A stretch of 44,999 bases of DNA from positions 1 to 44,999 of the forward strand of contig JAJRUI010000112.1 of assembly GCA_024277875.1 (NCBI GenBank), in the 5' to 3' direction. The notes beneath the pieces are model-generated. The model saw nothing but the letters and a program-made list of their open reading frames with translations. It made no database searches and had not been told where the DNA came from. Numbering within the stretch: the first letter of the stretch is position 1; each line of letters begins with the position of its first letter. Of the stretch, positions 6,751 to 24,220 are shown in pieces. The translations under genes and the position numbers were made by a program. This DNA is from Deferrisomatales bacterium. GTDB lineage: Bacteria; Desulfobacterota; Deferrisomatia; Deferrisomatales; Deferrisomataceae.

Positions 6751-7340
6751 CTCGTCCCCCCGTCGTCGAGCAAGGAGAGAAACCGGTGGAGGATCGCCGC
6801 GGTCAGTCCCCACACCCGGTGGCGGCCCCACCGGTACTCGTGTACCCGGTGCCCCGCCTCCGGCGCAAGGACTTGCCGGTGGTTGTCGCGGTTTTTCAGG
6901 TGCCCCAGGGGCACCCGGAGCACATCGGCGACCTCCCGCGGTTCAGGCCTCAACGGGTACTCCGGCAGGGGCAGCCACACCACGTGGGGGGTCACCCGGT
7001 ACCCGGTGATCGACGCGAAATCGTCCAGGGTGCCCAGCACCTCCAGGTCGGCCGGGGCGATCCCCACCTCTTCCCAGGTCTCCCGCAGGGCCGTGGCACG
7101 GGTGTCGGGGTCGTCCGGGTCGGCCCGCCCCCCGGGGAACGAGATCTCCCCCTTGTGGTGTTCCACGTGGTGGGTCCTCACGGTGAGGAGCACCGCCAGG
7201 TCGTTGCCGGCGGGGACCAGGGGCACGGCGACCGCCGCCGGGACCAGGCCGGCAGCGTCCAGGGCGCGCCGCCGGGTCCGGCCGAGGGCGGTCCGGATCC
7301 GGTCGATCTCCGGGCAGTGTACGGGTGCGATCTCGATCAT
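6747..7340 (-). CDS. NUDIX hydrolase, CoA pyrophosphatase-like
   Basis: A 197-residue NUDIX enzyme. The Nudix box lies in GRADPDDPDTRATALRETWE and continues EVGI; it is preceded by HHKGEISFPGG. The combination of an upstream HxGEISFPGG and TALRE is typical of the CoA-diphosphatase (YeaB/NudL-type) subfamily, which splits CoA into 3',5'-ADP and 4'-phosphopantetheine. The catalytic REXXEE residues are present (RETWEE). It is coupled at both ends: its ATG overlaps the cytochrome stop (ATGA) and its own TGA overlaps the kinase ATG (ATGA). Why such an enzyme sits between a cytochrome and a sensor kinase is not obvious. Substrate is inferred from family. Confidence 0.88.
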   Translation of the reverse strand: MIEIAPVHCPEIDRIRTALGRTRRRALDAAGLVPAAVAVPLVPAGNDLAVLLTVRTHHVEHHKGEISFPGGRADPDDPDTRATALRETWEEVGIAPADLEVLGTLDDFASITGYRVTPHVVWLPLPEYPLRPEPREVADVLRVPLGHLKNRDNHRQVLAPEAGHRVHEYRWGRHRVWGLTAAILHRFLSLLDDGGTR

Positions 7341-9310
7341 CGGGTCTCGTGACACTCCTGGCACAGGACCTCCCGGGGCCGGACCAGCAGGCCCGGCCGG
7401 TCCGACGCGTGGGGCTCGTGGCACCCGGCGCACGCGTAAGTCGTCCCCTCGACCGGGAATCCGGCCGAGCCGGGCAGCCGTGCCCCGGAGGCCGCGTCCA
7501 GGGGGTGGGGGTGGCCGTCCCGGTCGTGGCACCCGAGGCACACCGCGTCGCCCCTGGCCCGGAGGAGGGCAGGGCCGTACCCCGCGTGGGGATCGTGACA
7601 CGGGACGCAGCCGTCGTCCAGGGCCGGGTGCGGTTCTCTGCGCCCGTCCCGGGGATCGTCGTGACACCCGAGGCACAGCCCGGGGGTGGGGGTCGACAGA
7701 AACGCGGGCCCGCCCCCGCCGTGGGGGTCGTGGCACGCGGTGCACACCGCAGCCGGGGGGTGGCGCTCCCGCCCGGCTCCCGGGAGCACCCCGTCGTGAC
7801 ACCGGCCGCACATCCAGGGTTGATCTCCCCGGAGGAGTGCGGGCAGGACCGCCAGGTGCGGGTCGTGGCACCCGGTACAGTCGCCGTCCGCCACCGGAGG
7901 ATGGGGCCGGGCTCGTCCGGCCCGCGCAGCGGGCCTCAGGCTGTGGCACATGCGGCACCGGGTGGCCGGGTCCTCCACCAGGATGCTCCGGTCGTCGCCG
8001 CCGCCGTGACACACGGTGCACCGGCCCTGGCGGAGGGGGGCGTGGAGCCGCCCCCGCACCAACTGGTCCTGCTGCGACGCGTGGGGAGGGTGGCACAGGG
8101 TGCACGCGTCCGGCGGTACCGACAGGTTCCCGTGCAGGCTCCGGAGTTCCGGGTCGCCGGCCGGGTCGTGGCAGCGCCCGCACGACCTCCGGGCCGCGGC
8201 CGGGTCCCGGTCCCGGTGCGGGTCGTGGCACGACGGACATCCCGTTGCCAGGGCCCCGTGGATCGTCCGTCCCTGTCCCACTCCTTCGTGGCATCCCAGG
8301 CACGCCGTGGCTGTCCGCTTCCGGGACGGCTCCCCCCCCGGGTCGTGGGGCTCGTGGCAGGTCTCGCACCCGGAAACCGCGTCGTGGTGCCCCCCGGGGT
8401 CCACCCGGGTGTGGCACGGGGTGCACACGGCCGCGCCGCCGGGCGCGAGCAGTCCGTCCCCGTCCCCGTGGGGGTCGTGGCACCGGGTGCACGCCCGCGC
8501 CTCTGCGGCCGGGGGATGGGGTGTCCTGGCCGCTGTGCCGGTGTCATGGCACCGCCGGCACAGTTCGGTTTCGGGCCCGTACAGTTCGGCTGGGTACCCG
8601 GAGAAGTGGGGGTCGTGACACGCGGCGCACCCCCCTTTCCGGTACGCGGGGTGCACGTCGGGCCCGGGGCGGTACGGCGCGTGGCACCGGGAGCACAACG
8701 CTGAGACGGGTTCGCGCAGCAGCTTGGGATCGGTGCCCACGTGGGCCGTGTGACACCGGCCGCACTGCGCCACGGCTGTGCGGAAGTGGGGGGCTTCCTC
8801 GGCTGCTCCGCGGTAGCCCGGGTTGCTGGCCACGACCACGTGGCAGCCGAGGCAGACCCAGGGATACCCGCCGTCGAGCAAATCCCTGGACACGGGGTCG
8901 TGGCAGTCCTCGCACCGGGAGATGTCGCCCGCGTGCACCCGCTGGGGTGCATACCCCGGCGGGGCCTGCTCCTGTCCCTGCGCGTAGAACACCCGCACCC
9001 GCCGGTCGCCGACCCGGATGTCGTTCAAGCCCGGGTCCAGCAGCACGAAGATCTCGAACAGATCGCCCCAGTCGGCCCGGACCTCGTCCTCCAGCAGGCC
9101 GGCAGCCGACCGGACGCCCCACGGCACCCGCTGCCCGCGGGTCGCGGTGCCCAGGATGAGCAACGTGTCTTCCCGGACCACGGTCCGGTCCAGGGGCGCC
9201 AGGATCTCGATCCCCTGTGCGGGGCGCGCCGCGGCCAGCAACAACAGCAGCCCCAGCAGGCACAAGGGCGTCGGGTGCAGGCGGTGGCGGATCCGGTGTG
9301 CGATCGGCAC
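7337..9310 (-). CDS. 23-heme periplasmic c-type cytochrome with N-terminal beta domain
   Basis: An exported protein of about 657 residues with 23 CXXCH heme-binding motifs, by direct count. After a hydrophobic signal sequence (LCLLGLLLLLAAARPAQG) comes a beta-rich domain of about 110 residues without heme motifs, then the heme region of about 530 residues in doubled-CXXCH style, many reading CHDPH. Heme spacing is about one per 23 residues, suggesting a wire-like electron carrier in the periplasm or at the outer surface. I chose the GTG at 9308-9310 with AGGA 5 bases upstream, since it gives a normal signal peptide; the frame extends to 9484. It heads the NUDIX/kinase/regulator operon and is divergent from the PEGA/ABC operon. 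Extracellular electron transfer is plausible but unproven. Confidence 0.93.
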   Translation of the reverse strand: MPIAHRIRHRLHPTPLCLLGLLLLLAAARPAQGIEILAPLDRTVVREDTLLILGTATRGQRVPWGVRSAAGLLEDEVRADWGDLFEIFVLLDPGLNDIRVGDRRVRVFYAQGQEQAPPGYAPQRVHAGDISRCEDCHDPVSRDLLDGGYPWVCLGCHVVVASNPGYRGAAEEAPHFRTAVAQCGRCHTAHVGTDPKLLREPVSALCSRCHAPYRPGPDVHPAYRKGGCAACHDPHFSGYPAELYGPETELCRRCHDTGTAARTPHPPAAEARACTRCHDPHGDGDGLLAPGGAAVCTPCHTRVDPGGHHDAVSGCETCHEPHDPGGEPSRKRTATACLGCHEGVGQGRTIHGALATGCPSCHDPHRDRDPAAARRSCGRCHDPAGDPELRSLHGNLSVPPDACTLCHPPHASQQDQLVRGRLHAPLRQGRCTVCHGGGDDRSILVEDPATRCRMCHSLRPAARAGRARPHPPVADGDCTGCHDPHLAVLPALLRGDQPWMCGRCHDGVLPGAGRERHPPAAVCTACHDPHGGGGPAFLSTPTPGLCLGCHDDPRDGRREPHPALDDGCVPCHDPHAGYGPALLRARGDAVCLGCHDRDGHPHPLDAASGARLPGSAGFPVEGTTYACAGCHEPHASDRPGLLVRPREVLCQECHETR

Positions 9311-9579
9311 GTCGTTCCTGTGGTGGCCCGGTCGGCCCGGCTGGGCTCCCGGCGGAAGAGAGGCCCACAACCTATCACCCCCTGTCCGGCCGGGGCAATA
9401 CGGGTCCGGCTCTGCGTGATATGAGCCCGGCCCGGTGGGTGTAATGACCCAACCGGCGACACGGGAACGGGGAGGGCGCGCCAAAGGGCCGTTCGGAAAC
9501 AGGCATAAAATGTGCTATGAAACCGGGGGCCCGAACCCGACCCCCACCGGACCGCTCGGCGGTCGGAGGACTCGTCGTC
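9311..9579. promoter_or_regulatory. Divergent intergenic promoter region
   Basis: This 269-base gap separates the start of the 23-heme cytochrome (minus) from the start of the envelope/ABC operon (plus). It must hold both promoters. On the plus strand an AT-rich island (AGGCATAAAATGTGCT, 9501-9516) has the GG-N10-GC spacing of a sigma-54 site but matches the consensus poorly upstream. TAAAAT inside it could also be a sigma-70 -10 box without a clear -35. I see no convincing promoter on the minus strand and no hairpin element. No gene is visible. Confidence 0.45.
9501..9516 (+). promoter_or_regulatory. Possible sigma-54 promoter, weak match
   Basis: AGGCATAAAATGTGCT keeps the invariant GG and GC dinucleotides with 10 bases between them, and the -12 half (TGCT) is good, but the -24 half (AGGCAT) departs from TGGCAC. 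It lies 64 bases before the ATG at 9580. A sigma-54 regulator is encoded in the divergent operon, which makes the match more interesting but does not prove it. Confidence 0.35.
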
Positions 9580-10791
9580 ATGGCAGACCGGTTCCGCTGT
9601 TCCTGGTGCGCCGCCCTGGCCGTGGTCGTCCTGTTGGCCGCGGCAGCACCGGCCCCCGCAGCCATCAAGATCCGCAAGCCCGTGCCGGACCGGTTGCCCG
9701 GCCAGGGGCACCAGCCCCGTGCCTCCAGGCCCGACCGTGGGGAGGGCCGGTTCGTGGGGTCGGTCGTGTTCGCCCGGGGGGACCAGGTGGTGGCCGAGAT
9801 CGGCGGACAGACACGGGACCGGGAGCGGCTGATCGTGTTCGGTGCGGGGATGCGGCGCCGGGGCGCGGTGGTGGTGGTCAAGGCCCTGGGAGACGGTGTG
9901 TTCCTGCTCCGGCCCGTGGAAGGGGCCTTGCCCCGGCCCGGCGACCGGTTGGGGCGGGAGTCGGAAAGGGAGGCCGCCGCCCGGGTGCTCCGCGCGAACC
10001 GGGAGGAAGACTACCGGGAGTTTCTCGACCGGTTTCCGAAGAGCGCGTACCGGCCCCGGATCGGCCGGGAGCTGTTCCGCCTCCGGTTGCGGCAGCGGTA
10101 TCCGACCTTCCCGGGGACCACGATCGAGGGCCGGCTGGTCCTCGTGGAAGCGGTGGACCGGGAGGTGCCTCTCGACCAGGTGCTGCTCAAGCTCGACCGG
10201 TTCGTGATCGCCCGCACCGGCGGCGGGGGACGGTTCCGGATCGACGGGATCCCGAAACTCGACGAGCCCGTGAAGGTCACGTTGTCCGTGCGGGACCCCC
10301 GGTTCCGGGTTGCCGAGGAGGTGCGGGTGTCCCTCCCCGCGGACCGGGACACGGAGGTGTCCGTGGACCTCCCGGTCCGGATCACCCCGACCGTGCTCGC
10401 GGGCCGGGTGGTGGACGCGCGCGGGGGCGCGGTCGCCGGCGCCGAGGTCTGGACCCACCCGTACACGATGGAGGTGTTGTCGGGCGAGGACGGCTCGTTT
10501 CGGATCTCCCGCCGCAAGCGGCTCGCCGGGGCCGAGGACGGCGGGGCCGTGGACGAACCCCTGTTCGGCGGAACGTACGAGGTGTACGCGTACCGGCAGG
10601 GGTACGGGGTGAACCGCGTCACGGTGGACGCCGACAGCTTCGAGGAGAACCCCGTGGAACCCGTGCGTCTCGAACGGTACGATCCGGCTGCTGAGCCCGT
10701 GCCGGAACTGGGGGTGGACCTGGGGCGCCACCTTCAGCTCTCCCCGACCGGCGTGGGCCCCCAGGGGGGCGGCCCCCGCCTGAACCGATGA
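9580..10791 (+). CDS. Exported protein with carboxypeptidase-regulatory-like domain
   Basis: A 403-residue protein with a signal peptide (AALAVVVLLAAAAPAPA, cleavage near AIKIRK). The middle and C-terminal parts contain beta-sandwich repeats of the carboxypeptidase-regulatory/CNA-B type: PGTTIEGRLVLVEAVDREVP, then VLAGRVVDARGGAVAGAEV with GEDGSFRI. Such domains bind carbohydrate or protein or act as stalks in the envelope. I start at ATG 9580, which has GGAGGA 9 bases upstream and gives a clean signal peptide; an upstream ATG at 9517 lacks both. It is the first gene of the long plus-strand operon. Exact role unknown. Confidence 0.8.
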   Translation: MADRFRCSWCAALAVVVLLAAAAPAPAAIKIRKPVPDRLPGQGHQPRASRPDRGEGRFVGSVVFARGDQVVAEIGGQTRDRERLIVFGAGMRRRGAVVVVKALGDGVFLLRPVEGALPRPGDRLGRESEREAAARVLRANREEDYREFLDRFPKSAYRPRIGRELFRLRLRQRYPTFPGTTIEGRLVLVEAVDREVPLDQVLLKLDRFVIARTGGGGRFRIDGIPKLDEPVKVTLSVRDPRFRVAEEVRVSLPADRDTEVSVDLPVRITPTVLAGRVVDARGGAVAGAEVWTHPYTMEVLSGEDGSFRISRRKRLAGAEDGGAVDEPLFGGTYEVYAYRQGYGVNRVTVDADSFEENPVEPVRLERYDPAAEPVPELGVDLGRHLQLSPTGVGPQGGGPRLNR

Positions 10792-10825: not shown

Positions 10826-12448
10826 ATGAGAAACGAGTTCTTCCGCCGCAGCGGGTTCCTGGGGGCCGCGACAGCGGCCGTGTGGCTCGCGGTGGCCGGG
10901 GTCGCTGGCGCCCAGCAGGCGGCGCCCGTGCCTGCCGAGGCCGCTCGGGAAGAGGTGCTGGCCACGCCGACCCGGTACGAGGCCGGGGACCTGTCGGTGT
11001 TGTCGGTCCAGTCCCGGCCCGAAGGCGCCCGGGTGTTCGTGGACGGCGAAGAACGGGGAACGACCCCGGTGTACGTCCGGGACCTGGACGACGGTCCACA
11101 CGAAGTGATCCTGTACCTGGACGGGTTCGGAGCGTACCGGCAGCGCGTGGACGGCCCCGGCGGCCGGATCTTCTTGGACCTCGGGGCCGAACACGGAGTG
11201 GGCCTGGGGCTGGTGACCGTGTCGAGCACCCCGCCCGACGCCCGGGTCGAGGTGGACGGCCGGCGGGCCGGGCTGACGCCGTTCGAGATCCCCCTGGAGG
11301 CGGGCGACCACACCCTGAGATTCGTCCGGGAGGGGTACAAGGACGCAGAGCGGCCCGTGGCGGTGGCGCCCGGGGGGCGCCGTGAGGTGTCGGTCGTCCT
11401 GGAACCCCGTGAGGGAGCGCTCCTGGTGATCGCCAGCCCGGCCGGAGGGCGGGTGCTGGTGGACGGCCGGGACGTGGGCTCGGCCGACGAACCGGTGCGC
11501 GTGGACGGCGTGCCGCCGGGCCTGCACGCGGTGGAGGTCCGCCGGGACGGGTACCGGCCGTGGCGCAAACAGGACGTGGCGGTTCCCAGCGGCCGCACGG
11601 TCACGGTGCTGGCTGCCCTGCTGCCCGAACGCGACTACAGCTGGGTGCGGTTGTTCACCGATCCCCAGGGCGCCCGGGTGTTCCTGGACGGCGACGACCT
11701 GGGGGTGGCCGGCCCGGACGGGCTGGGTTTCAAGGCACCCAAAGGTGCCCACTCGTTGCGCCTGGTCCTGGATCCGGCGGAGAAACCGGGCTACCTCGTC
11801 CTGGAGAGCACGGTGCGGTTCGAACGGGACGAGGAGGACTTCCGGGACCGGCCGTTTCGGCTCCCGCCGGTGGACGAGAATTTCGTCACCGGCCGCACGC
11901 TGCTCGGCCGGGGGCAACTGGAGCAGGCCCTGGCGTTCCTGGGGCGGGTGCCCCCGGACCACCCGAGCTACGGGGAGGCCCGGCTCCTGGTGCTGGACGT
12001 GCTGGTCCGGCTGGGCCGGGCCGCAGAGATCCCCGGGGAGCTTGGCCGGTTGCTGGAGCGGCCGGACCAGGCCAACAACCCGGTGCTCAACACGGCCATG
12101 GGGTACTGGTGCCTGGTTGCGGCGCGAAGCGGCGCGCCCGGGGAAGCCGCGGCGCTCCTGGTGCGGGGGCTCGACGCCCTGGACCGAGCGGTCCGCACGC
12201 CCGAGCTGTTCCCGCCGGACGTCCGGGACGCCCTGCACCTGAAGGCGTTGTACTATGCGGGGCTTACCTGTGAACTGCTCTACCGCGCCGCGGGAGAGGC
12301 CCGGTACCTCAAGAAGGGGGTGCAGACGTGGGACATCTTCTTTGCCCGTCTGGAGTCGTCTCCTGACGCGTTGGAGCCCGAGTGGATTGAAAGAGCCGAA
12401 CGCCACCGCAGGAACCTGGGGTTCCTGGCGAAGAAACTGGCTGGTTAG
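10826..12448 (+). CDS. PEGA-repeat protein with helical repeat tail
   Basis: A 540-residue exported protein. A signal peptide (about 1-30, ending VAGAQQ) is followed by four PEGA-type repeats at about 55-107, 130-182, 195-250 and 270-328, each with a form of RPEGARVFVDG and HxxxxxxxGY. The C-terminal 200 residues (FVTGRTLLGRGQLEQALAFLG onward) look like TPR-type helices. PEGA domains occur in surface and envelope proteins of bacteria and archaea and are thought to bind other envelope components. The ATG at 10826 has GAGGTG 5 bases upstream; a GTG at 10820 is less likely. It lies 34 bases after the preceding gene and its 3' end overlaps the lipoprotein gene. Confidence 0.85.
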   Translation: MRNEFFRRSGFLGAATAAVWLAVAGVAGAQQAAPVPAEAAREEVLATPTRYEAGDLSVLSVQSRPEGARVFVDGEERGTTPVYVRDLDDGPHEVILYLDGFGAYRQRVDGPGGRIFLDLGAEHGVGLGLVTVSSTPPDARVEVDGRRAGLTPFEIPLEAGDHTLRFVREGYKDAERPVAVAPGGRREVSVVLEPREGALLVIASPAGGRVLVDGRDVGSADEPVRVDGVPPGLHAVEVRRDGYRPWRKQDVAVPSGRTVTVLAALLPERDYSWVRLFTDPQGARVFLDGDDLGVAGPDGLGFKAPKGAHSLRLVLDPAEKPGYLVLESTVRFERDEEDFRDRPFRLPPVDENFVTGRTLLGRGQLEQALAFLGRVPPDHPSYGEARLLVLDVLVRLGRAAEIPGELGRLLERPDQANNPVLNTAMGYWCLVAARSGAPGEAAALLVRGLDALDRAVRTPELFPPDVRDALHLKALYYAGLTCELLYRAAGEARYLKKGVQTWDIFFARLESSPDALEPEWIERAERHRRNLGFLAKKLAG

Positions 12449-13931
12449 CCTGGTCCTCCTTGCCGCGGCAGCCGGATGTACGGCGGACCCGGACCCCGGT
12501 CCCGGTCCGCCGGCGCCGGACCCGGAGGCCGCGGCCGTGCGTGCCGGGTGGATGGGGCGGTACGCGGCCCGGGACCCCCGGGTTGCAGCCGTGCTCGCCG
12601 GACAGCCGGGCTGGACGCGGCTTCGGGACATGGACCTGTTCGGCGCGGTGCAGGCGTTCTCGGCGGGCAGGGACGAGGAAGACCGGGTGGGGCTCGGCCG
12701 TGCGTACCTCGCGTTGGCCGACCTGTTCGAAGGGCTGGATCGGGCGTTTCTCGGCGCCGAGAAGCGGTACCTGTCCGGGCAGCCGTCGGATGCCGCCAGG
12801 ATCCGTCTCGGGTTCGTCGCGCTCAGGCAAGGGAACCTGGGCCGGGCCGCCCGGGCGTTAGGCCCGGAGCCGCCGGCCGGGCTGGGCTACCCGTGGGCCC
12901 TCGGCCGGGCCGGGCTCGCAGCGGCCCGGGGCGACGCCGCAGCTGCCCGCCGGCAGCTGGCAGGGGCCCCGGCGCCGGAAACGCAGGCCCACCGGGTGCT
13001 GGGGGAGGCCGCGGCTCACCTATGGGGGCTGCCCGGCCCGGGGCAAGGGCCCGGACCGTTCGGCCAGGCGCTGAGGGGGTTCCGGCAGGGGGACCTGGTC
13101 GGCGGTGTGCTGGCGCTCCAGATGGTGTCGTTCCAGGTGGAGACCGGCCCCGGCCCGGACCTGTTCCTGTACCCCCTGCTCCGGCAGGGGTTCGCGGCCC
13201 TGGCAGCGGCCGCGTTTCCGGAACGGGCGGCGCCGTACTGGGCGGGACGGGCGTCGGCGCTGGCCGGGGACGTGGACGCCGCCCTGGAGCGGTACCGGGC
13301 GGCTGCGGCCGGGAAGGCGGCCGGCCCGGTCGTGTGGCTGTTCTCCCCGGTGGTCTCGGCGGTCGAGGCCGGCCGGCTGGCCCGGGTGATGGCCGGGGCC
13401 GAGGAGGTGCGCCGGGGCCGGGTGGCGGCCGGGTTGGGGTCGTGGCGGGCCGTCGCGACCGGGCCGTCCCCCGGCCCCCTGGTCCTGGCCGCCCTGGCGG
13501 CGGTCCAGACCGAGGCCGGGTTGTCAGAACCCCTCGGGGACCCCCGGGCCGCGGCACGCGCTGCCGTGGCAGCGGTCCGCCGCGGCCGGGACGCGGTGTC
13601 GGCCGGCGGGGACGAACTCCTTCCCGACCTGTACGCCGCTCGCACCGCTGCAGTCGCGGTCTGGGCTGCCAGGGCCCTGGCGCGGTCCGGGGGGGACCTG
13701 GAGGTGCTCGAGGCGGGGCACCGCAAGGCCCTGGGCAGCCGGCCCGATTTCGTCAACCCCCCCCGGTTCCTGGCCGCCCTGGCCGGCGCGTACGCCCGGA
13801 ACGGCCGGTACGAGTCGGCCGTGGCCGTGCTGTTTCGCCTGGCCGAAGACTACCCGTCGGCACGCCTCGTCTACGAGAGCGTGAAACGGCTGTACGCGTC
13901 GCGGAGCGGGGGAGGGGCTCCGCCCCGATGA
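12387..13931 (+). CDS. Large lipoprotein with TPR-like helical repeats
   Basis: A lipoprotein of about 514 residues. The signal sequence WLVSLVLLAAAAGC carries a lipobox, so Cys is the likely lipidation site and the protein should be membrane anchored. The rest is Ala/Arg/Gly-rich and appears helical, with TPR-like stretches such as RVGLGRAYLALADLFEGLDR and a C-terminal GAYARNGRYESAVAVLFRLA. The start is uncertain: there is no ATG near the signal sequence. I chose TTG at 12387, giving a 20-residue basic n-region and a 62-base overlap with the PEGA gene. It ends in an ATGA overlap with the substrate-binding protein gene. I do not recognise a named family. Confidence 0.75.
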   Translation: MKEPNATAGTWGSWRRNWLVSLVLLAAAAGCTADPDPGPGPPAPDPEAAAVRAGWMGRYAARDPRVAAVLAGQPGWTRLRDMDLFGAVQAFSAGRDEEDRVGLGRAYLALADLFEGLDRAFLGAEKRYLSGQPSDAARIRLGFVALRQGNLGRAARALGPEPPAGLGYPWALGRAGLAAARGDAAAARRQLAGAPAPETQAHRVLGEAAAHLWGLPGPGQGPGPFGQALRGFRQGDLVGGVLALQMVSFQVETGPGPDLFLYPLLRQGFAALAAAAFPERAAPYWAGRASALAGDVDAALERYRAAAAGKAAGPVVWLFSPVVSAVEAGRLARVMAGAEEVRRGRVAAGLGSWRAVATGPSPGPLVLAALAAVQTEAGLSEPLGDPRAAARAAVAAVRRGRDAVSAGGDELLPDLYAARTAAVAVWAARALARSGGDLEVLEAGHRKALGSRPDFVNPPRFLAALAGAYARNGRYESAVAVLFRLAEDYPSARLVYESVKRLYASRSGGGAPPR

Positions 13932-15490
13932 CCCCCCGGAGGCGCTTTCCGATGCCCTTGCGCTGCGTTTTGCTCATCTTTCTGCTGGCCGTTGCCGCGC
14001 CCGCCCCGGCTGCGCTCCGGTACGCCGAGTCCTCGGCCCCCTCGAGCCTCAACCCGTTCCTGGTGCGGGACATGCCGAGCCTCCGGGCCGTGGAACTCGT
14101 GTACGAAGGGCTGGTCACGCCCCCGGACGCCGGCAGGGTGCGGCCGTTGCTGGCCGAGTCGTGGCAGGTGTCGGACGACGGCAGGCAGGTCACGTTCCGC
14201 CTCCGCCGAGACGTGCTGTGGCACGACGGCGAGCCGTTCACCGCCCGGGACGTGGCGTTCACGGTGGCCGCCGGACGGGATCCCCGCAGCGCGACGCCCC
14301 TGCGGGCCCAGTTCGCGGCGTTCGCAGCGGTGGACGTGCTCGGCGAGCACGCGGTGCGGTTCCGGTTCGCCCGTAAACCGGTGAACCCGCTCCTGCAGTT
14401 CGACTTCAAGATCCTGCCCGCCCACCTGTTCCCAGAGGGGTACGTCCCGGCCGACGCGGGGAGCCGCCGGGTGGTGGGCACCGGTCCGTTCGCGTTCGAG
14501 GCGTGGTCGGCCGGCGGTGAGCTGCGGCTCGTCCGCAACCCCCGGTACCACCGGCCTGGGCAGCCGGGCATCGGCGCCGTCGAGGTCAGCCCGGTGCCCG
14601 ACCCCAACATCCGCAACGAGCTGCTCCGGTACGGCGCCCTCGACCTGCTGCCCCAGGTGCGGCCCAGGGACATCCCGGCCCTGGAAGAGCTGAGCGGGGT
14701 GCGGCTGTACCCGTACAGCACGTTGTCCTACAGCTTTCTCGGGTTCAACTTCAGGAACCCCGCCCTCCGGGACCGCCGGGTGCGCCGGGCCCTGGTCCAC
14801 GGCATCGACCGGACGGCCATGCTGCGGGCGCACTACGGGGGGCGGGGAACCGTGATCTCGGGTCCGTTCCCGTCCGCGTCCTGGGCGTACAACTTCGACG
14901 TGAAGCCGTGGGAGCACGACCCGGCCCGCGCCGCCGCCCTGCTGGACGACGCCGGGTGGCGCGACCGGGACGGGGACGGCTGGCGGGAATCGGAGACGGG
15001 CGCGCCCCTGAGGCTCCGCCTCGTGTCCACGGCGACGGACGAGGCCCAGAAGGCGGTGGTGCTCGACGCGGAGCAACAGCTGCGCAACCTGGGCGTTGCC
15101 GTGGAGGTGCGGTTCCTCGAGCCCCTCGCGTGGCGGGAGGCCGTGTTCGACGAACACGCGTTCGACCTGGTGCTGGCCGAGTGGACGTTCGACCACAACG
15201 TGGACGTGTACACCCTGTTCCACTCTTCCCAGACCGGACCGGGCCAGAACAACCTCGGGGGGTACGCCGATCCCGAGACGGACCGGCTGTTGGACGAGAG
15301 CCGGGCGGTTCCGGACTCGGAAGCGCTCCGGGCGGTGTACGGGGAGCTGCACCGGTTGCTCCACGACGAACTGCCGTACGCGTTCCTGTGGAGCCTGGAC
15401 CGGTACGCGGCCGTGTCCACCCGGATCGAAGGGGTTCGGCTTCACCCGTTCTACTTCTTCTCCTACACGGGCGCCTGGAAGGAGCGGTGA
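13928..15490 (+). CDS. ABC transporter periplasmic substrate-binding protein, Dpp/Opp type
   Basis: A 520-residue solute-binding protein of the SBP_bac_5 family (peptide, nickel and related importers). The signal peptide (LRCVLLIFLLAVAAPAPA) has no lipobox, so it is free in the periplasm. Family landmarks are SLNPFLVRD near the N-terminus, LLAESWQVSDDGRQVTFRLR, FTARDVAFTV, GTGPFAFEAW and DRRVRRALVHGIDR. The ligand cannot be read from sequence. I start at ATG 13928 (ATGA with the lipoprotein stop); ATG 13952 with GGAGG 9 bases upstream is an alternative. It is followed by two permeases and two ATPases, together a full importer. Confidence 0.92.
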   Translation: MTPRRRFPMPLRCVLLIFLLAVAAPAPAALRYAESSAPSSLNPFLVRDMPSLRAVELVYEGLVTPPDAGRVRPLLAESWQVSDDGRQVTFRLRRDVLWHDGEPFTARDVAFTVAAGRDPRSATPLRAQFAAFAAVDVLGEHAVRFRFARKPVNPLLQFDFKILPAHLFPEGYVPADAGSRRVVGTGPFAFEAWSAGGELRLVRNPRYHRPGQPGIGAVEVSPVPDPNIRNELLRYGALDLLPQVRPRDIPALEELSGVRLYPYSTLSYSFLGFNFRNPALRDRRVRRALVHGIDRTAMLRAHYGGRGTVISGPFPSASWAYNFDVKPWEHDPARAAALLDDAGWRDRDGDGWRESETGAPLRLRLVSTATDEAQKAVVLDAEQQLRNLGVAVEVRFLEPLAWREAVFDEHAFDLVLAEWTFDHNVDVYTLFHSSQTGPGQNNLGGYADPETDRLLDESRAVPDSEALRAVYGELHRLLHDELPYAFLWSLDRYAAVSTRIEGVRLHPFYFFSYTGAWKER

Positions 15491-16452
15491 GCCGGGGCGT
15501 GCGGTGGCAGTGGCTCGGGTGGGCGGTCGGCCAGGCAGGGGCGGCTGCCGTCGTGCTCCTGGGCACCAGCCTGGTGCTGTTCCTGGTGGTGGAGGCCGCG
15601 CCCGGCCGCGGGCCGGACCGGCTCGGCACGGTGACGGCGGCTGCGGGCGGGCCGGTGGCGCCGAGAGACCGGGCCGGCTGGGCGGTGCGGTACGGGCGGT
15701 GGGTGGCCGGGGCGGTTCGGGGCGAGTTCGGCTCGAGCACGGCGGTCCAGCGGGGGCGGCCCGTGGCCGAACTACTGGGGTCGGCTGCCCGGCGGTCCCT
15801 GTCCCTGTCCGCGGCCGCGTTCGGCCTGGCCGTGTTCGCAGCCGCGGTCGTCGCAGCCGGCCGGCGGGTGTTGCCGGGGGCGGCCGGCGTCGCGGCCTGG
15901 GGGGTTCATCTGGCGTCGGCGCTCCCCGTGTTCCTGCTGGTGTACGGCGCCGTGGTGTGGCTGAACCCGGCGGTGGCCCGGGGCGCCGCGAGCGGCTGGT
16001 GGGACGCGCCGGGCTGGTTCCCGTTCCCGTCCCGCCCCGAGGGGGCCGCCTGGTGGCTCGGGGCCGGGCTGCTCGCTGTGGGAGACGGCTTCCTCGCGGA
16101 CCTGTGCGACCGGTTTTCCGCCCAGACGGACGCGGTCGGCGCAGCCGGGTACCGGGTGGGCGCGCGCCTCCTGCGCCTTCCCCGGCTGGCCGTGGCCGTG
16201 CGAGCCACGGTTCCCGGGGTGGCGGACCACCTGGCCGGCCGGGTCACGTTCCTCCTGGGCTCCCTGGTGGTCCTGGAGTCGGCCCTCGGCTGGCCGGGGC
16301 TGGGCTACCTGGCGTGGCGGGCGGCGGCCGAGCGGGACCTGCCCGTGCTCCTGGCCGTGGCCGTGCTCCTGGCCGTCGTCGTGCGAACCGCGGCCGTGGC
16401 AGCCGGCCTGGTGCGGGCTGCCCTCGACCCCCGGTACCGGGGGTCGGGATGA
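15487..16452 (+). CDS. ABC transporter permease, DppB-like
   Basis: A 321-residue integral membrane protein, the first permease of the importer. It begins with a TM helix (AAAVVLLGTSLVLFLVVEAAP) and a long external loop, as in DppB/OppB, and then has about five more helices. The end of the family signature is clear (SLVVLESALGWPGLGYL, then ERDLPVLLAVAVLLAVVV and ALDPRYRGSG). The EAA loop facing the ATPase (YRVGARLLRLPRLAVAVRAT) is degenerate compared with permease 2. GTG start overlaps the upstream stop as GTGA, so translation is coupled. It should pair with the DppC-like protein to form the channel. Confidence 0.9.
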   Translation: MSRGVRWQWLGWAVGQAGAAAVVLLGTSLVLFLVVEAAPGRGPDRLGTVTAAAGGPVAPRDRAGWAVRYGRWVAGAVRGEFGSSTAVQRGRPVAELLGSAARRSLSLSAAAFGLAVFAAAVVAAGRRVLPGAAGVAAWGVHLASALPVFLLVYGAVVWLNPAVARGAASGWWDAPGWFPFPSRPEGAAWWLGAGLLAVGDGFLADLCDRFSAQTDAVGAAGYRVGARLLRLPRLAVAVRATVPGVADHLAGRVTFLLGSLVVLESALGWPGLGYLAWRAAAERDLPVLLAVAVLLAVVVRTAAVAAGLVRAALDPRYRGSG

Positions 16453-17300
16453 AGCTCACGGCGTACCGTCATCCCCGGCCCGGATGGACCCGCCCCCGGG
16501 CCGCCGTGGCCGTCGGCCTCGCGTGCCTGGCGCCCGCGGCTGCCGGTGCGGTGTTGGCCGTTGCGGGCTGGCTGCCCGACCCGGCCGCGTTCGCCGGGCC
16601 GGGCAACGCCCCGCCGTCGCCGGCCCACTGGTTGGGCACCGACGTCCTGGGGCGCGACGTGGCGTCCCGGCTCGGGTGGGCTGCCGCCCGGTTCGCCGGA
16701 CCGGCGTCCTTGGCCGTGGTCGTGGCCCTTGCCGTGGGCGGCGTCCTGGGGGTGGCCGAAGGCCTGGCCGGGCCGGTGGGCCGGCGGGCGGGACGGTGGA
16801 CGGCCCAGGCCCTGGACGGGGTGCCCAAGCTGGTGCTGGTGCTGCTGGCGGCGTCGATCACCCGGAGCGACCTGGGGTGGACCATGGCCGTGGTCGGCCT
16901 GACGTTCGCGCCCCAGGTCGCGGGTGCGGTCCGGGCGAGCATCGAGCGGTTGCGCGCCCGGGCGTTCATCGAGGCTGAACGGTGCCTCGGGGTCGGTGCC
17001 ACGCGGATCGTGCTCCTCCACATCCTGTGGGGGCACAGCCGGCGCGCGCTGGTGTCCCAGGTGACCGGGGTGCTCGCGTACGCCGTGCTGGTGGAGTCCA
17101 GCCTGTCGTACCTGGGGGGTGCCCTGGGCGTGCAGGAACCGTCGGCCAGCTGGGGCAACATGCTCGCCCTGGCCCGGGACGGCCTGTTCCACGGGGCGTG
17201 GCTTCCCGCGGCAGCCCCGGCCGCCGCGATCTGCGTGACCTTGCTGGGGTTTCGCCTGGTGGGCGCCGGCCTCCTGGGTGCCCTGGAGGACCGGCCGTGA
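16449..17300 (+). CDS. ABC transporter permease, DppC-like
   Basis: A 283-residue second permease. The N-terminal TM helix is followed by HWLGTDVLGRDVASRLGWAA, a hallmark of DppC/OppC proteins. The EAA motif is well kept (FIEAERCLGVGATRIVLLHI), and the C-terminal part has ESSLSYLGGALGVQEPSASWGNML as in the family. It starts at an ATGA overlap and ends at a GTGA overlap with the first ATPase. Together with the DppB-like subunit it forms the inner membrane channel; the substrate is unknown. Confidence 0.93.
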   Translation: MKLTAYRHPRPGWTRPRAAVAVGLACLAPAAAGAVLAVAGWLPDPAAFAGPGNAPPSPAHWLGTDVLGRDVASRLGWAAARFAGPASLAVVVALAVGGVLGVAEGLAGPVGRRAGRWTAQALDGVPKLVLVLLAASITRSDLGWTMAVVGLTFAPQVAGAVRASIERLRARAFIEAERCLGVGATRIVLLHILWGHSRRALVSQVTGVLAYAVLVESSLSYLGGALGVQEPSASWGNMLALARDGLFHGAWLPAAAPAAAICVTLLGFRLVGAGLLGALEDRP

Positions 17301-18334
17301 CCCCGCTTCTCGAGGTCCGGGACCTGGTGGGTTGCCTCGAGGGGGCCGGCGGGCTCACCCGGGTGCTCGACCGGGCCGCCCTCTCGGTCCGGGCCGGCCG
17401 GTCGTTCGCCCTGCTGGGCGAGTCGGGCTCGGGCAAGACGTTTCTCGCCCAGGCGTGCCTCGGGCTCCACCCGGGCCGGCCCGGGCTCGTGGCCGGGTCG
17501 GTGTGTGTGCTGGGGACCGACGTGCTGGCCGGCCTGGAAACCCTCGTGCGCTACGAGCCCGGGCCCAGCCCCCGGGTTTCCAAGGACGTGGGCCGGTGGG
17601 ACCGGGCCGTGGCCCGGCGCCTGGCCCCGGTGCTGGGAACCGAGGTGACCGTCGCGCCCCAGGACCCGGCCACCGCGTTGCCGCCGTTCTACCCGGTGGC
17701 CAGGCTCCTCGGGGCCGCGCTCAAGGCCCGGGACCCGGACCTGTCCGGGGCCGCGTTGCACGGCCGGGTCCGGGCGTGGCTCGAACGGGTCCACATGTAC
17801 GACGTGGATGCGGTGCTCCGCCTGTACCCCCACGAACTGTCCGGCGGCATGGCCCAGCGGGTGGCCCTCGCCCTCGCCCTGGCTCCCGGCCCGCGGCTGC
17901 TGGTGGCGGACGAGCCCACCACCGGCCTGGACGCGACCTTGCGGGTCCAGATCCTCGCGACGCTGCGCGGCGCCGTGCGAGACCAGGGGCTGACCCTGCT
18001 GCTGATCACCCACGACGTGGAGGCGGCCCGGCTGCTGGCTCAAGACGTGGCCGTGCTGTGCGCGGGCCGCGTGGTGGAGGAGGGGCCGGCCGCGCGGGTG
18101 CTGGACCCGGCCGTGGCACCCAAACACCCGTATACCGCGATGTTGTTGGCTGCGGAGCAATGGTTCCGGGCCGGGGGGCCGGTGCCGGCCTTGCCCTCGG
18201 CCGGCCCGTTCGGAGCGGGGTGCGGTTTTTCGGCCCGCTGCCCCGAGGCCACGGCCGCGTGCATCGGGGCCGCGCCAGGCCTGGCGCAGGCAGCACCCGG
18301 CCACCGGGTGGCGTGCCCGGGGCGCGTGCGGTGA
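17297..18334 (+). CDS. ABC transporter ATPase, DppD-like
   Basis: A 345-residue nucleotide-binding subunit. Walker A is GESGSGKT, the Q loop lies in VAPQDPATALPP, the signature is LSGGMAQRV, Walker B is LLVADEP, and the switch His is in ITHD. The C-terminal Cys-rich segment (CGFSARCPEATAAC and HRVACPG) is the oligopeptide-transporter extension. Compared with the usual DppD there appear to be about 20 extra residues between Walker A and the Q loop (around RYEPGPSPRVSKDVGRWDRA). It starts at a GTGA overlap with the permease. It pairs with the next gene to power import. Confidence 0.93.
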   Translation: MTPLLEVRDLVGCLEGAGGLTRVLDRAALSVRAGRSFALLGESGSGKTFLAQACLGLHPGRPGLVAGSVCVLGTDVLAGLETLVRYEPGPSPRVSKDVGRWDRAVARRLAPVLGTEVTVAPQDPATALPPFYPVARLLGAALKARDPDLSGAALHGRVRAWLERVHMYDVDAVLRLYPHELSGGMAQRVALALALAPGPRLLVADEPTTGLDATLRVQILATLRGAVRDQGLTLLLITHDVEAARLLAQDVAVLCAGRVVEEGPAARVLDPAVAPKHPYTAMLLAAEQWFRAGGPVPALPSAGPFGAGCGFSARCPEATAACIGAAPGLAQAAPGHRVACPGRVR

Positions 18335-19305
18335 GCGGGCCCCTTGTCCAGGTGGACGGGCTGTGCAAGTCGTTCAGGCCCCCCGGTTTCCTGGCGGGGG
18401 GGAGCCGGACCCCGGCCCTGCGCGGCGTGGGGTTCACCCTGGGCGGACGGGAGCTGGTGGGGCTGGTGGGGGAGTCGGGTTCGGGCAAGACGACCCTGGG
18501 CCGGTGCCTGCTGGGGCTCACCGCGTTCGACCGGGGTACGGTGCGGGTGGCCGGCTTCCGCGTGGACCGCCTGGGGCGGGCCCGCCGCGCCTTTGCCCGG
18601 GAGGCCCAGATGGTGTTCCAGAACCCGTACGCGGCCCTGGACCCCGCGTTCCGGGTGCGGACGATCCTGGGGGAGGCCGTGCGGGTCCACGGCGACCGGG
18701 ACGAACCCACCGCCCGGCAGGTGGAGCGGCTCGCCGACCTGGTCCAGCTGCCACGGGGGCGCCTGGACGAGTTCCCCGGCCGGTTGTCCGGCGGGGAGCG
18801 GCGCCGGGTCGCGTTCGCCCGGGCCCTGGCCACCCGGCCGCGGTTCGTCGTGGCTGACGAGCCAGTGGCAGGGATCGACCCGCCGGTCCAGGTCCAGCTC
18901 CTCGAACTCGTCCGCCGGATCCACGCCGCGCGGCCGCTGTGCCTCGTGCTGATCTCCCACGACCTGGGCGCGGTCCGGGCCCTGGCCGAACGGGTGCTGG
19001 TGCTGTACCGGGGCCGGCTGGTGGAGGACGCGCCCGCAACCGCGTTCTTCGGAGGACGGGCACTGCACCCGTACTCCCGGGAGTTGCTGCGCAGCGCGTA
19101 CGACGCCCCGGAAATCCTGGCCGGCCCGGTGGGCGGGGTGCGCCGGCCGGCCGGCCGGGATCAGGGGTGCCCCTACCGGCACCGGTGCGGACGCGCGACC
19201 GGCTCGGGCGGCGCGCCGTGTGCTACAATCCGGCCCGCTCTGGACCCGTGCGGCCCGGGTCACCGGGTCGCCTGCCACCGGTGGGAGGAGGGGGAGCAGC
19301 CGTGA
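18331..19305 (+). CDS. ABC transporter ATPase, DppF-like
   Basis: A 324-residue second ATPase. Walker A is GESGSGKTT, Q loop VFQNPYAALDP, signature LSGGERRRV, Walker B FVVADEP and switch His in ISHD. After Walker B it reads VAGIDPPVQVQ where the family often has VSALDVSIQ. The C-terminal Cys motif (GCPYRHRC, then CATI, C and C) is the oligo_HPY extension, which may hold an iron-sulfur cluster in some members. GTG start and GTGA overlaps at both ends show coupling to the DppD-like and Fn3-like genes. The importer is complete: one binding protein, two permeases, two ATPases. Confidence 0.93.
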   Translation: MSGPLVQVDGLCKSFRPPGFLAGGSRTPALRGVGFTLGGRELVGLVGESGSGKTTLGRCLLGLTAFDRGTVRVAGFRVDRLGRARRAFAREAQMVFQNPYAALDPAFRVRTILGEAVRVHGDRDEPTARQVERLADLVQLPRGRLDEFPGRLSGGERRRVAFARALATRPRFVVADEPVAGIDPPVQVQLLELVRRIHAARPLCLVLISHDLGAVRALAERVLVLYRGRLVEDAPATAFFGGRALHPYSRELLRSAYDAPEILAGPVGGVRRPAGRDQGCPYRHRCGRATGSGGAPCATIRPALDPCGPGHRVACHRWEEGEQP

Positions 19306-21095
19306 CGGCTGTGGGGCGTTTTCGGCGGTGGGCCGCGGCCCGGCCCGGGTGGGCCGTGGTCGTGCTGGCCTTCCTGATCGTGGCCGGCCCTGCCCGGGCC
19401 GGGTACGAGGCCGCACTGGAACGGGGCGCGTTTTTCCTGGAGCGGGGGGCGACCTACGGACCGGACGCGGTGAGGAGCCTGGAGGCGGCCCGGGACGCGG
19501 ACCCTGACCGGGCCGGCGCCGACCCCCGGTGGCTCCGGGCCGCGGCCCGTGCCTACGCGCTCACGTTCCGGTTCACCGAGGCGTACGGACTGCTCGAGCG
19601 CCTGCTGCAACAGGACCCCCGCGACGGTGCGGCCCGGGACCTGCGCGCCTGGCTCCTGGAGGACGCCGGGCTCGGTCGCGTGTGGGTGGTGAGCGCGGTG
19701 CCCGTGGGCCGGGTGGCCGCCCGGCTGGAGCCCCTGTCCGGCGCCCGTCTCGGCGCGGGGGCGCGAAGAGCGCTCGCGCGGCTCAACGAGCGGCTGGCCC
19801 GGGGGATCGCGGCGACGCCGGCGGGCCAGGCCCTCTTGGTGCCAGAGGGGCGGTACCGGTTCGTCCTGGAGCCGACCCCGGCGGTGTTCGCGCCAACGGA
19901 CCCGGTGACGCTGCACGTGTGGGCCGGGGACGAGGAGCGCGTCCGGGTGGTGCCCCGGTACCCCGCGCCCGCCGGGTGGGAGGTGCGCCGTGCCGCCCGC
20001 TCGATCTCCCTGGGGTGGCCGCCCCTTGCCGGCGCGACCTACCGCCTGGTCCGGGAGACCCCCCGCGGAGACGACCCGGTGTGCGCGGGGCCGGACACCC
20101 GATGCGCCGACTCCGGGCTGGCCGTTGGCCAGACCGTGATCTACCGGCTGGAGGCGCTGAACCCGGGCGGCGAGGTGGTCGCCGCGTCCCGGGTGTCGGC
20201 GCGCACCGAACCCCCGGTGGAACGGATCGCGGCCGCGGGCGAGATCGGCCCTGACCTCCGGGTAGAGGTGGGGTGGGCCCTGGGGGACGGCGCAGCCGAC
20301 GCGGTCCGGATCGTGCGCGAGGGCCCGGACGGTGACCGGCCGGTGGCCCGGCTGGAGCCGCCCGAGCCCCTGGCCGAGGGGTCGGTGTTCGACGGGCCGG
20401 TGGTGCCCGGCCCGTCGGCTCGGGTGCTCGCGTACCGGGTCGAGGCGTGGGTGGCGGGCGCCGAACGGCCGTCGGCCGCGGCCCGGGTCGAGGTGCCCCT
20501 GCCGGCCCGGGTGGAGCGGGTGTCCACCGTGGTCGAGAGCGTGGAGGGCTCCGGCGTGGTGGTCGCGTGGGAGACCGTGCCCCGGGACGGGCTGGCCAGC
20601 GGTTACCGGATCTACCGGATTCGCGGGGACGGGACCGCGGCCGAACGGGTGGGCGAACTGCTGGATCCGTTTGCCCGGGAGTACGACTACGAGGTGGCCG
20701 ACCCCCTGGAAGCCGGCGGGTGGCGCCACTTCGTGGTGCCCCTGCTGAACGGCCGGGTCGTCCTCGACCCCGAGGCGTTCCGGGTGAGGGAGCCCGAGAC
20801 GCCCCGTTCGTTCCGGGCCCGGGCGCGCCAGAACGAGGAACTGCCGGACCTGGGGTTGTCCTGGGAGCCGGTGCCGGGTGCCGTGGGGTACACCGTGGCG
20901 CTGCTGGCTGGCGGCCGGGTGGTGGCCGAGCGGCTGGTCCGGAACGCGTTCGCCGACCTGTCCGGGCTCCGGAGCCCGTTGATGACCGTCCGCCGCCGGG
21001 TCCGGGTCCGGGCGATCACCGCTGCGGGGCAGGAGGTTCCCGTGTTGACCGTGGACGTGGAGTACGCGTCCCCTGCCCGGGGAGCCGTGCCGTGA
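19302..21095 (+). CDS. Exported Fn3-like repeat protein
   Basis: A 597-residue protein with a signal peptide (WAVVVLAFLIVAGPARAG). The first 100 mature residues look like TPR-type helices (GYEAALERGAFFLERGATYG, YALTFRFTEAYGLLERLLQQ). The rest is beta-rich with several fibronectin III-like modules, seen as recurring SxxWxPxxGAxxYRLxR patterns (LGWPPLAGATYRLVRE, VAWETVPRDGLASGYRIYRI, LSWEPVPGAVGYTVALLA). Such modules usually mediate binding in the periplasm or at the surface. It starts and ends in GTGA overlaps. The family is not one I recognise by name; function is unknown, but linkage to the importer and the TolB-like protein is tight. Confidence 0.8.
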   Translation: MTAVGRFRRWAAARPGWAVVVLAFLIVAGPARAGYEAALERGAFFLERGATYGPDAVRSLEAARDADPDRAGADPRWLRAAARAYALTFRFTEAYGLLERLLQQDPRDGAARDLRAWLLEDAGLGRVWVVSAVPVGRVAARLEPLSGARLGAGARRALARLNERLARGIAATPAGQALLVPEGRYRFVLEPTPAVFAPTDPVTLHVWAGDEERVRVVPRYPAPAGWEVRRAARSISLGWPPLAGATYRLVRETPRGDDPVCAGPDTRCADSGLAVGQTVIYRLEALNPGGEVVAASRVSARTEPPVERIAAAGEIGPDLRVEVGWALGDGAADAVRIVREGPDGDRPVARLEPPEPLAEGSVFDGPVVPGPSARVLAYRVEAWVAGAERPSAAARVEVPLPARVERVSTVVESVEGSGVVVAWETVPRDGLASGYRIYRIRGDGTAAERVGELLDPFAREYDYEVADPLEAGGWRHFVVPLLNGRVVLDPEAFRVREPETPRSFRARARQNEELPDLGLSWEPVPGAVGYTVALLAGGRVVAERLVRNAFADLSGLRSPLMTVRRRVRVRAITAAGQEVPVLTVDVEYASPARGAVP

Positions 21096-22246
21096 GGTGG
21101 CTGGTCGCGGCCCTCTTGTTGTGGGCGGTCCGGCCGGCGGCCGCCGCGCCCGTGGAGGGGGTGCGTCCGGTGCCCCTCGGCACCCTGGACGGCCGGGGTC
21201 AGCCCGCCGACCCCCGGGTGTCCCCGGACGCAACCGCCGTCGGGTTCGAGTTCCTGGGCGCGGGCGGGGAAACGCTGGAGGTGTACTGGCTGCCCTTCGA
21301 CCGCGAGGGGGCCGAGCCCCGGCCGGTGGTGCCGATCCGGTCCGCCGACCCGTTCAGCCTGCGCCCCGACGCGGCCCGCCCGGTGAGCGAGGGGCTGAGC
21401 TGGGGTCCGCCCAAGCGGGGCCGGGCCCGTGCCGTGGTGGCCGCGACCCGCCGGGCCGCGACCCGGGGGCCGGGCCAGAACAATTTCGACCTGTTCCTGG
21501 CCGAACCCGGCCGGCGCGGTTTCCTCACCGAGCACCCGGCAAACGACGCACAGCCCGCCGTGAGCCCGGACGGGTCGCTGGTGGCGTTCGTGTCGGGCCG
21601 CACCGGCCAGGGAGACCTGTACCTGTACCGGTTCTTCGCGCAGGGCCCCACGGTGGTACGCCTGACCCGGGAGCCGGCCGGCTCCGAACTGTACCCGGCG
21701 TGGAGCCCGGACGGCCGCCGGCTCGCCTACGTCGCGCATCTGGGTGGTCAGGACCACGTGGTTGTGGTAGACGGGGTAGCCGGGGACGCCCCCGCGTTCC
21801 GGGACGTGACCCCGGAGCGCCGCGGCTCGTGCCTGGCGCCGTCCTTTTCCCCCGACGGAAGGTGGATCGCGTTCTACGCCCGCGAACCGGCCAGCCGCCG
21901 GGCAGACCTGTTCGCGGTGCCGGTCGCGGGCGGGACGGCGCGGTTGTTGCTGGAGGGCGGGCTCCCCGAGACCCGGGGCGGCCCCCGGTGGCTGCCCGAC
22001 GCAGCCGGGCTCGTGGTGGTTCGCGACGATGCGGCCCGGCGCAACCCCCTTGTCCGGGTCGCGGTGGACGGGGGGGCGGTGGAGGTGCTGGAGACCGGCA
22101 CCGAGTTGAACGCGGACCCGTGGGTGGCGGACCTGCCCGCGGGGTGGACGGTGTTCTGGACCGCCCAGGGCGCGTCCGGGGACGTCCAGAAACGGTGGCG
22201 GCGGATCTATCGGGGCCGGCTGCCCCGGTGGGAACGGGCGCGCTGA
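21092..22246 (+). CDS. TolB-like beta-propeller protein, exported
   Basis: A 384-residue protein with a short signal peptide (WLVAALLLWAVRPAAAA) and about five PD40/TolB-type blades, each with a SPDG-like core: PRVSPDATAVGFEF, PAVSPDGSLVAFVS, PAWSPDGRRLAYVA, PSFSPDGRWIAFYA, PRWLPDAAGLVVVR. TolB-like propellers work in the periplasm, often as binding platforms. This is not a canonical TolB: the N-terminal TolB domain is absent and no tol/pal genes are near. The GTG start overlaps the Fn3 stop as GTGA. It is the last gene of the strictly overlapping run; the next gene follows within 60 bases. Confidence 0.83.
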   Translation: MRWLVAALLLWAVRPAAAAPVEGVRPVPLGTLDGRGQPADPRVSPDATAVGFEFLGAGGETLEVYWLPFDREGAEPRPVVPIRSADPFSLRPDAARPVSEGLSWGPPKRGRARAVVAATRRAATRGPGQNNFDLFLAEPGRRGFLTEHPANDAQPAVSPDGSLVAFVSGRTGQGDLYLYRFFAQGPTVVRLTREPAGSELYPAWSPDGRRLAYVAHLGGQDHVVVVDGVAGDAPAFRDVTPERRGSCLAPSFSPDGRWIAFYAREPASRRADLFAVPVAGGTARLLLEGGLPETRGGPRWLPDAAGLVVVRDDAARRNPLVRVAVDGGAVEVLETGTELNADPWVADLPAGWTVFWTAQGASGDVQKRWRRIYRGRLPRWERAR

Positions 22247-22302
22247 TGAGCGTGCCGAGATCGCGGCCGGCCCCCCCGGGCGGGCCCAGAGGAGCACGAC
22301 GG

Positions 22303-22698
22303 GTGAACCGAACCGACGACACGGTCGCGCGCTACGACCTCCTGGAAGCCCTCGAGGAGATCGCGGCCACCACCGGCATCGACCTGGACCTGGTGGCCCG
22401 GGTCCTGGAAGGCGAGATCGACTACCTGGGATGCCTCGGCGTGCTGGACGACCAGGGGTTGGACGATGCGAGCCGGCGGGAACTGGATGCGCTGAGGGAA
22501 GAGAACGCGGACCTGTTCGCCCTGAGCGACGGGGAGTACGACCCGGACGTGGCCGTGGCGTTCATCCAGCGCAACCGGGGTGTGGACAAGGACACGATCA
22601 CCGGCGTGCTGGAGGCCAACTACCGGTTCATGGACCGCCGGGGCCTGCTGGACGAGGGGTGGGATCCGGAGTGGTCCCCGCCCCGGTCGCGGTCGTGA
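22303..22698 (+). CDS. Small acidic hypothetical protein
   Basis: A 131-residue acidic, helical protein without signal peptide (VARYDLLEALEEIAATTGID, then LDALREENADLFALSDGEYD, and VAFIQRNRGVDKDTITGVLE). I do not recognise it. I chose the GTG at 22303, which has GGAG 8 bases upstream. An ATG at 22246, one base into the TolB stop (TGATG), is the alternative and would add 19 Pro/Arg/Gly-rich residues. It lies 38 bases before the decarboxylase gene and is probably co-transcribed with it. Confidence 0.65.
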   Translation: MNRTDDTVARYDLLEALEEIAATTGIDLDLVARVLEGEIDYLGCLGVLDDQGLDDASRRELDALREENADLFALSDGEYDPDVAVAFIQRNRGVDKDTITGVLEANYRFMDRRGLLDEGWDPEWSPPRSRS

Positions 22699-22736
22699 GG
22701 CCGGGCCGGGCGGGCCGCGGGGAAGGAGCGGACGAG

Positions 22737-24180: not shown

Positions 24181-24220
24181 GCGGAAAAACCCACGGAGCG
24201 GGGTTTTTCCGCATCCTGCT
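24181..24220. terminator. Bidirectional hairpin terminator within a REP-like element
   Basis: A perfect 12-bp inverted repeat (24181-24192 with 24201-24212; GCGGAAAAACCC) around an 8-base loop. The A and T runs lie inside the stem arms, so it can work as a terminator in both directions. It sits between the convergent decarboxylase and 7-heme cytochrome genes. The flank CATCCTGCT together with GGAAAAACCC marks it as a copy of the REP-like family found elsewhere in the window. Confidence 0.8.

Follow-up and report, generated by a model that had tools for sequence, protein, structure and literature searches.

A Dpp/Opp-type importer flanked by exported protein genes in a conserved block of the Deferrisomatales

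Does a tight run of stop/start overlaps between importer and envelope genes reflect a shared function of their products? The question was raised by a stretch of 44,999 nucleotides (hereafter the window) from a Deferrisomatales bacterium (contig JAJRUI010000112.1, assembly GCA_024277875.1), in which the five genes of an ATP-binding cassette (ABC) importer (D to H) stand between genes of exported proteins (A to C upstream, I and J downstream; Table 1). An initial annotation had joined a lipoprotein, the importer, an Fn3-like and a TolB-like protein into one translational unit through seven four-base overlaps, and had suggested one complex or pathway. The block was found to be a genuine and conserved functional unit in which a variant Dpp/Opp importer comes with envelope partners, and that importer and envelope genes belong together was borne out, mainly by conserved gene order rather than by the joints; a shared pathway is very probable. 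Family-5 ABC importers are usually seen as five-part systems. Here a clade kept exported scaffolds beside the importer while four families (f1 to f4) diverged, with a sigma54-like site in three of the four, which suggests that some importers of two-membrane bacteria work with dedicated envelope partners and provides a delimited set of genes, an ATPase insertion of diagnostic value and a candidate promoter.

Gene order and stop/start overlaps

The order PEGA-repeat protein, TPR lipoprotein, family-5 solute-binding protein (SBP), two permeases, two ATPases, TPR-Fn3 protein and TolB-like protein recurs in each of the 12 order genomes found, to the extent that contigs cover it. Genes A to J run unbroken in seven of them (the window's genome, G000, and G001, G003, G006, G007, G008 and G009) and are split over contigs in G004, G005, G010 and G011, the last without a visible gene A; in G002 the block is cut within C by the contig end. 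Among the 11 order relatives, C was found in all, the SBP in ten and a good match to I in ten, G002 giving a weak match only. Protein identity across the four families is about 32-73%. In genomes with callable genes those beyond the block mostly differ, exceptions being the close pair G001/G003 and G006/G007; three f4 stretches were read by tblastn instead of gene calling.

A profile made from eleven SBPs was searched in 395 genomes of the phylum and scored 789-990 bits in 12 of them, the next best score being 379; these scores are raised, as the profile was built from 11 of the same 12 genomes. Members of the SBP clade were seen in 11 order genomes (the window's included) and in G073, a genome of another class that also contributed to the profile, and in none other of the 395. 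Gene C was present in those 12 genomes and in G002, among 297 searched, and lies directly upstream of the SBP gene in 12/12 genomes carrying the latter. A contig scan with ATPase H gave a best match of 38% identity and recognised no genome of the order. No description of this gene set was found in the portions of the literature that were covered.

The copy in G073 is rearranged: PEGA, TolB-like, TPR, SBP, two permeases, two ATPases, a T2SS-G-like pseudopilin and an HD-GYP-like protein, the last assigned by reading. The two final genes come after the importer (L151, 10657-13359). The window's SBP alone matched that of G073 with 394.6 bits and 42% identity, and the only TolB-like match in G073 was the cluster's own gene. 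As the module occurs in 1 of 26 genomes of its class, acquisition by transfer is likely. A mis-binned contig was considered and rejected, the tetranucleotide correlation being 0.88-0.94 with ten other G073 contigs vs 0.43-0.75 with ten order stretches. The contig begins inside the PEGA gene.

Joint statistics were collected from the window together with 20 other stretches of its genome (372,186 bases), with a simple, home-made gene caller whose start positions are approximate. Leaving the unit aside, 4-bp overlaps make up 59 of the 284 pairs of same-strand neighbours (21%), with no more than three in succession, so that tight joints are mostly ordinary taken singly and the length of the run is unusual. 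An ATGA or GTGA was read at each of the seven positions (13928, 15487, 16449, 17297, 18331, 19302 and 21092), but 13928 is doubtful as a real start; a TGATG at 22246 (J/K) provides an eighth coupling. Ordinary compaction would make all of this functionally silent, a GC-rich genome with many 4-bp overlaps having placed envelope genes by the importer. Beyond the 21% of pairs, it can draw on the -1 and -4 joints of the E. coli nik, dpp and opp operons and on some -4 joints in the other three SBP5 importers of this genome, but a background run of no more than three, a gene order retained by four families whose flanking genes mostly differ, and the joining of the same gene types (less I) in a different order in G073 make it quite improbable. 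In the literature consulted on translational coupling (PMC6728339, PMC10666635), short overlaps are reported to be enriched in same-complex subunits, with 30.4% of E. coli pairs spaced -8 to +10 nt vs 6.8% (PMC10666635); going by these figures, overlaps raise the chance of contact and prove nothing. One physical complex of importer and envelope proteins would be possible but is doubtful.

The joints were compared in ten order relatives, counts referring to genomes where the joint was readable (the contig of G002 ends ahead of these joints, and only some of them were read in G011). Within the importer, the D/E joint is GTGA in 5/5 relatives of f1-f3 and 0/5 of f4. Starts overlap at E/F in 9/9, with a 4-bp version possible in six; at F/G a 4-bp joint is possible in 8/9 and a 1-bp joint in the remaining one; and G/H is 4-bp in 9/9. 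The H/I joint has a 4-bp start in 8/10 relatives (one of them TTG), a 1-bp start in G009 and neither in G007. Six of the seven joints hold up and the one at 13928 fails: across relatives the proposed coupling is firm within the importer and into I, absent upstream (C/D) and variable into J. The gene caller places the start of D at ATG 13952, with a gap of +20, where the signal peptides of relatives align, and the aligned start in 10/10 relatives is an ATG 31-143 nt past the upstream stop. In G006 it follows an in-frame TAA; in G007 an in-frame TGATG at -1 exists besides the aligned start at +71. The overlapping joints in D-H and into I would help to keep a fixed protein ratio, and D, as well as J in f3 and f4, is likely translated on its own, since these starts stand apart from the upstream stop.

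In the f4 genomes (L106, L107, L108, L109, L121) permease E has no start at the SBP stop. A TTG lying 23 nt upstream is one candidate start; the other, a CTG/TTG, lies 10 nt downstream at one common position. A D+E frameshift fusion was dropped, as either can start E.

Several observations on order and joints speak against the block as one coupled unit. The C/D joint shows a 4-bp overlap in 0/10 relatives, and I/J is 4-bp in 4/10 (1-bp possible in G011), kept in two of the four families and loose in f3 and f4. The search for relatives with the importer and without its envelope genes returned none lacking C (12/12), but G073 has no gene I and carries its TolB-like gene upstream of the importer, and it is the only bearer of the module among the 26 genomes of its class. 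G006 and G007 also have four genes upstream of the block in common, and the order is small (12 genomes), so that shared descent adds to the conservation of gene order.

Table 1. Features of the block and its surroundings in the window
Feature	Position	Strand	Remark
163-aa protein without family match	3319..3810	-	neighbour in 8/9 relatives
sigma54-type response regulator	4209..5624	-	
PAS histidine kinase	5617..6750	-	
NUDIX protein	6747..7340	-	neighbour in 7/9 relatives
divergent multihaem cytochrome c, 23 CXXCH	7337..9310	-	conserved neighbour
sigma54-like -24/-12 site (GG-N10-GC), proposed operon promoter	9501..9516	+	not proven
gene A, exported, carboxypeptidase-regulatory-like domain	9580..10791	+	
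gene B, exported PEGA-repeat protein, stop TAG	10826..12448	+	
gene C, TPR-like lipoprotein	12387..13931	+	start uncertain
gene D, family-5 solute-binding protein	13952..15490	+	initially annotated start 13928 not supported
gene E, permease B	15487..16452	+	GTGA joint
gene F, permease C	16449..17300	+	ATGA joint
gene G, ATPase D, clade-specific insertion between Walker A and Q-loop	17297..18334	+	GTGA joint
gene H, ATPase F	18331..19305	+	GTGA joint
gene I, exported TPR + Fn3-like protein	19302..21095	+	GTGA joint
gene J, exported PD40 propeller resembling TolB but distinct from it	21092..22246	+	GTGA joint
gene K, small protein without family match	22246..22698	+	TGATG joint; f1-f3 only

The importer and its ligand

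All five importer subunits were confirmed by Pfam: D as SBP_bac_5 (263.3 bits, cut-off 32.4), E and F as BPD_transp_1 (33.8 and 34.6 bits vs 26.4), and G and H as ABC_tran, with oligo_HPY at 33.6 and 27.0 bits vs 27.1, the second just under. Both ATPases seem, by eye, to have intact Walker, signature and switch motifs. The set resembles E. coli DppABCDF and OppABCDF in its SBP_bac_5 protein, two BPD_transp_1 permeases, two ABC ATPases and gene order, and scores are of Dpp/Opp type, with the cut-off reached for none of the NCBIfam models shown. It differs in an extra segment of ATPase D, a divergent permease B and exported partner genes in the operon. The segment of gene G, between Walker A and Q-loop, was present in 8/8 aligned clade sequences (7 of the 12 order genomes and G073) and 0/7 controls (five E. 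coli ATPases and two from other importers of this genome). Permease E shows a gap in the EAA region and, in members of the order, an additional loop.

The ligand of D is likely a peptide, as far as motif comparison can indicate. The SBP carries W419-x-x-D422, with Asp in 11/11 aligned SBPs; the same column holds Asp in DppA, OppA, MppA, SapA and DdpA and not in NikA or GsiB, and this Asp is the residue by which DppA and OppA hold the amino group of their peptides. D would then hold its ligand by the free N-terminus, and E-H would import it. Against this, the closest solved chain is AppA (1xoc, E=2.9e-52), with Ser at the Asp position, and Asp422 therefore leaves the ligand unsettled. Another ligand of the same transporter family, such as a nickel chelate, haem or a glutathione-like compound, gains from the fact that NikA-, HbpA- and GsiB-type proteins score in the range of peptide binders, but is unlikely in view of the conserved Asp, which peptide binders share and NikA and GsiB lack (as does AppA), and of the Rfam scan, in which no family, riboswitches included, reached the gathering score in the window. 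The NikA equivalog TIGR02294 scored 152.9 bits vs its cut-off of 393, and no nickel model cut-off was reached; E. coli NikABCDE is alike in architecture and overlapping joints, but NikA is without the Asp of this SBP.

A search of the PDB with a C-terminal SBP fragment gave no match. Unusual conservation of the SBP relative to the ATPases was considered and dropped, because a control importer of the same genome behaved the same vs G003 (SBP 87%, ATPases 79-80%); for this comparison the G001 stretch did not extend to the ATPases.

The exported proteins

Judged by eye, genes A, B, C, D, I and J each open with a signal-like peptide. Of their products, B, C, I and J would act as scaffolds that gather or present a peptide-like ligand. 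For A, the start was set at 9580, where the signal peptide begins, in preference to 9517, which directly adjoins the promoter-like site.

For C, the closest in-frame start ahead of the signal peptide is a TTG at 12387, within gene B, whereas the caller's start at 12537 would remove the lipobox AAAGC (Cys codon at 12477), which was read from the sequence and whose Cys is invariant in the alignment of relatives; the TPR label comes from a weak Pfam match. In the seven genomes read, no ATG or GTG start of C was common to all, TTG being the commonest. C begins inside B in the +1 frame, and in this region (12387-12480) some 60 bases are under constraint in both frames. The stop of B is TAG in 12/12 order genomes, the next base being C in 11/12. 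A B+C frameshift fusion was also considered, C being open across the stop of B, yet C possesses a lipobox and TTG starts of its own, and no convincing slippery site was seen. The tail of C (13875-13931) reads ESVKRLYASRSGGGAPPR here against a consensus of ESLKRLYASRTGGEAPPR and is nearly identical across the order, unlike the whole protein, which is only 34-52% identical.

The labels given to I and J in the initial annotation were retained in weakened form. The Fn3-like match of I is weak (3mpc, E=0.004), and TPR_19 falls below the Pfam cut-off (21.6 vs 25 bits). A structure of I predicted from one sequence had a mean pLDDT (predicted local distance difference test) of 43.6 and was not used. 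J shares the PD40 beta-propeller with TolB of the Tol-Pal system and in that sense is TolB-like, but it is without a TolB-level score, N-terminal domain or Pal neighbour: against TIGR02800 it reached 105.3 bits, or 68.7 bits over model positions 274-396, far from the cut-off of 343, the Pfam search gave no TolB N-terminal family in J, and no match to Pal was found on the window's contig. A near full-length TolB occurs elsewhere in 9 of the 11 relatives searched (five above the cut-off; partial in G011), and it adjoins Pal in 6/6 order relatives searched for both. The idea that J is the missing TolB of this genome was dropped, as most relatives carry TolB elsewhere; for the same reason, and with the genome 92% complete and without a Pal above cut-off, the absence of TolB from G000 is likely an assembly gap.

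A more elaborate arrangement can be imagined, a trans-envelope machine in which C, I and J would dock on the importer via the ATPase G segment and the permease E loops and, with the cytochrome, couple surface peptide capture to respiration. We regard it as very unlikely.

Control region and neighbouring genes

The 16-mer before gene A resembles the sigma54 -24/-12 consensus. As [AC]GGCA[CT]N4TGTGCT it is kept in G000, G001, G003, G004 and G007, while its flanks have diverged, and the pattern has a single occurrence in the window, at 9502. Two further genomes, which played no part in defining the pattern, also show it: G005 has AGGCACGGATTGTGCT at the same place (shuffles 5%), and G002 has one match in 6002 bases, again at that place (0/200 shuffles). 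Seven genomes of families f1-f3 thus carry the site, and in six of them a PAS kinase and a sigma54 regulator adjoin, the contig of G002 not reaching the corresponding place. Examination of four f4 genomes showed no such site and no kinase/regulator pair next to the operon, though a weaker pair lies beyond J in G006.

Three results count against a promoter here. Shuffled sequences reached the best site score in 4-9.5% of trials per genome, so that the case for a promoter comes from the conserved place. In G004 a minus-strand match (24.5) exceeds the proposed site (24.0), and in G009 (f4; L147/L107, merged at about 17723) a near-consensus minus-strand match facing the cytochrome scores 26.0 (shuffles 0.5%).

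As the site lies before ATG 9580, the operon would start at A, and the unit first annotated would be its later part. We lean towards a regulated ten-gene operon (A-J, with K added in three families) for peptide uptake with dedicated scaffolds, a reading drawn from sequence comparison. A signal sensed by the PAS kinase would activate the regulator and thereby open the sigma54 promoter in f1-f3, where the regulator is adjacent.

The divergent gene upstream encodes an exported multihaem cytochrome, whose homologue is the divergent neighbour in 11/11 order genomes with a visible place, the window's included. This constancy would suit a different reading, in which the true system would consist of the cytochrome and the envelope genes, serving extracellular electron transfer or forming a surface structure, and the importer would be a passenger under the same regulation that feeds peptides as electron donors. 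Two points argue against it, the position of the importer in the middle of the operon and its staying with PEGA, TPR and TolB-like genes in G073, where the contig start leaves the place of the cytochrome out of view; we consider it improbable, and the readings weighed here are not mutually exclusive. Homologues in eight relatives counted have 25-35 CXXCH, and weaker paralogues occur elsewhere in G000, G001, G006 and G008.

On the other side of the block, a pyridoxal-dependent decarboxylase (22671-24161) lies next to K; the stretches fetched around the operon in other genomes contained no recognised relative. A second multihaem cytochrome near the unit is encoded on the minus strand at 24219-25331, an exported protein with 7 CXXCH.

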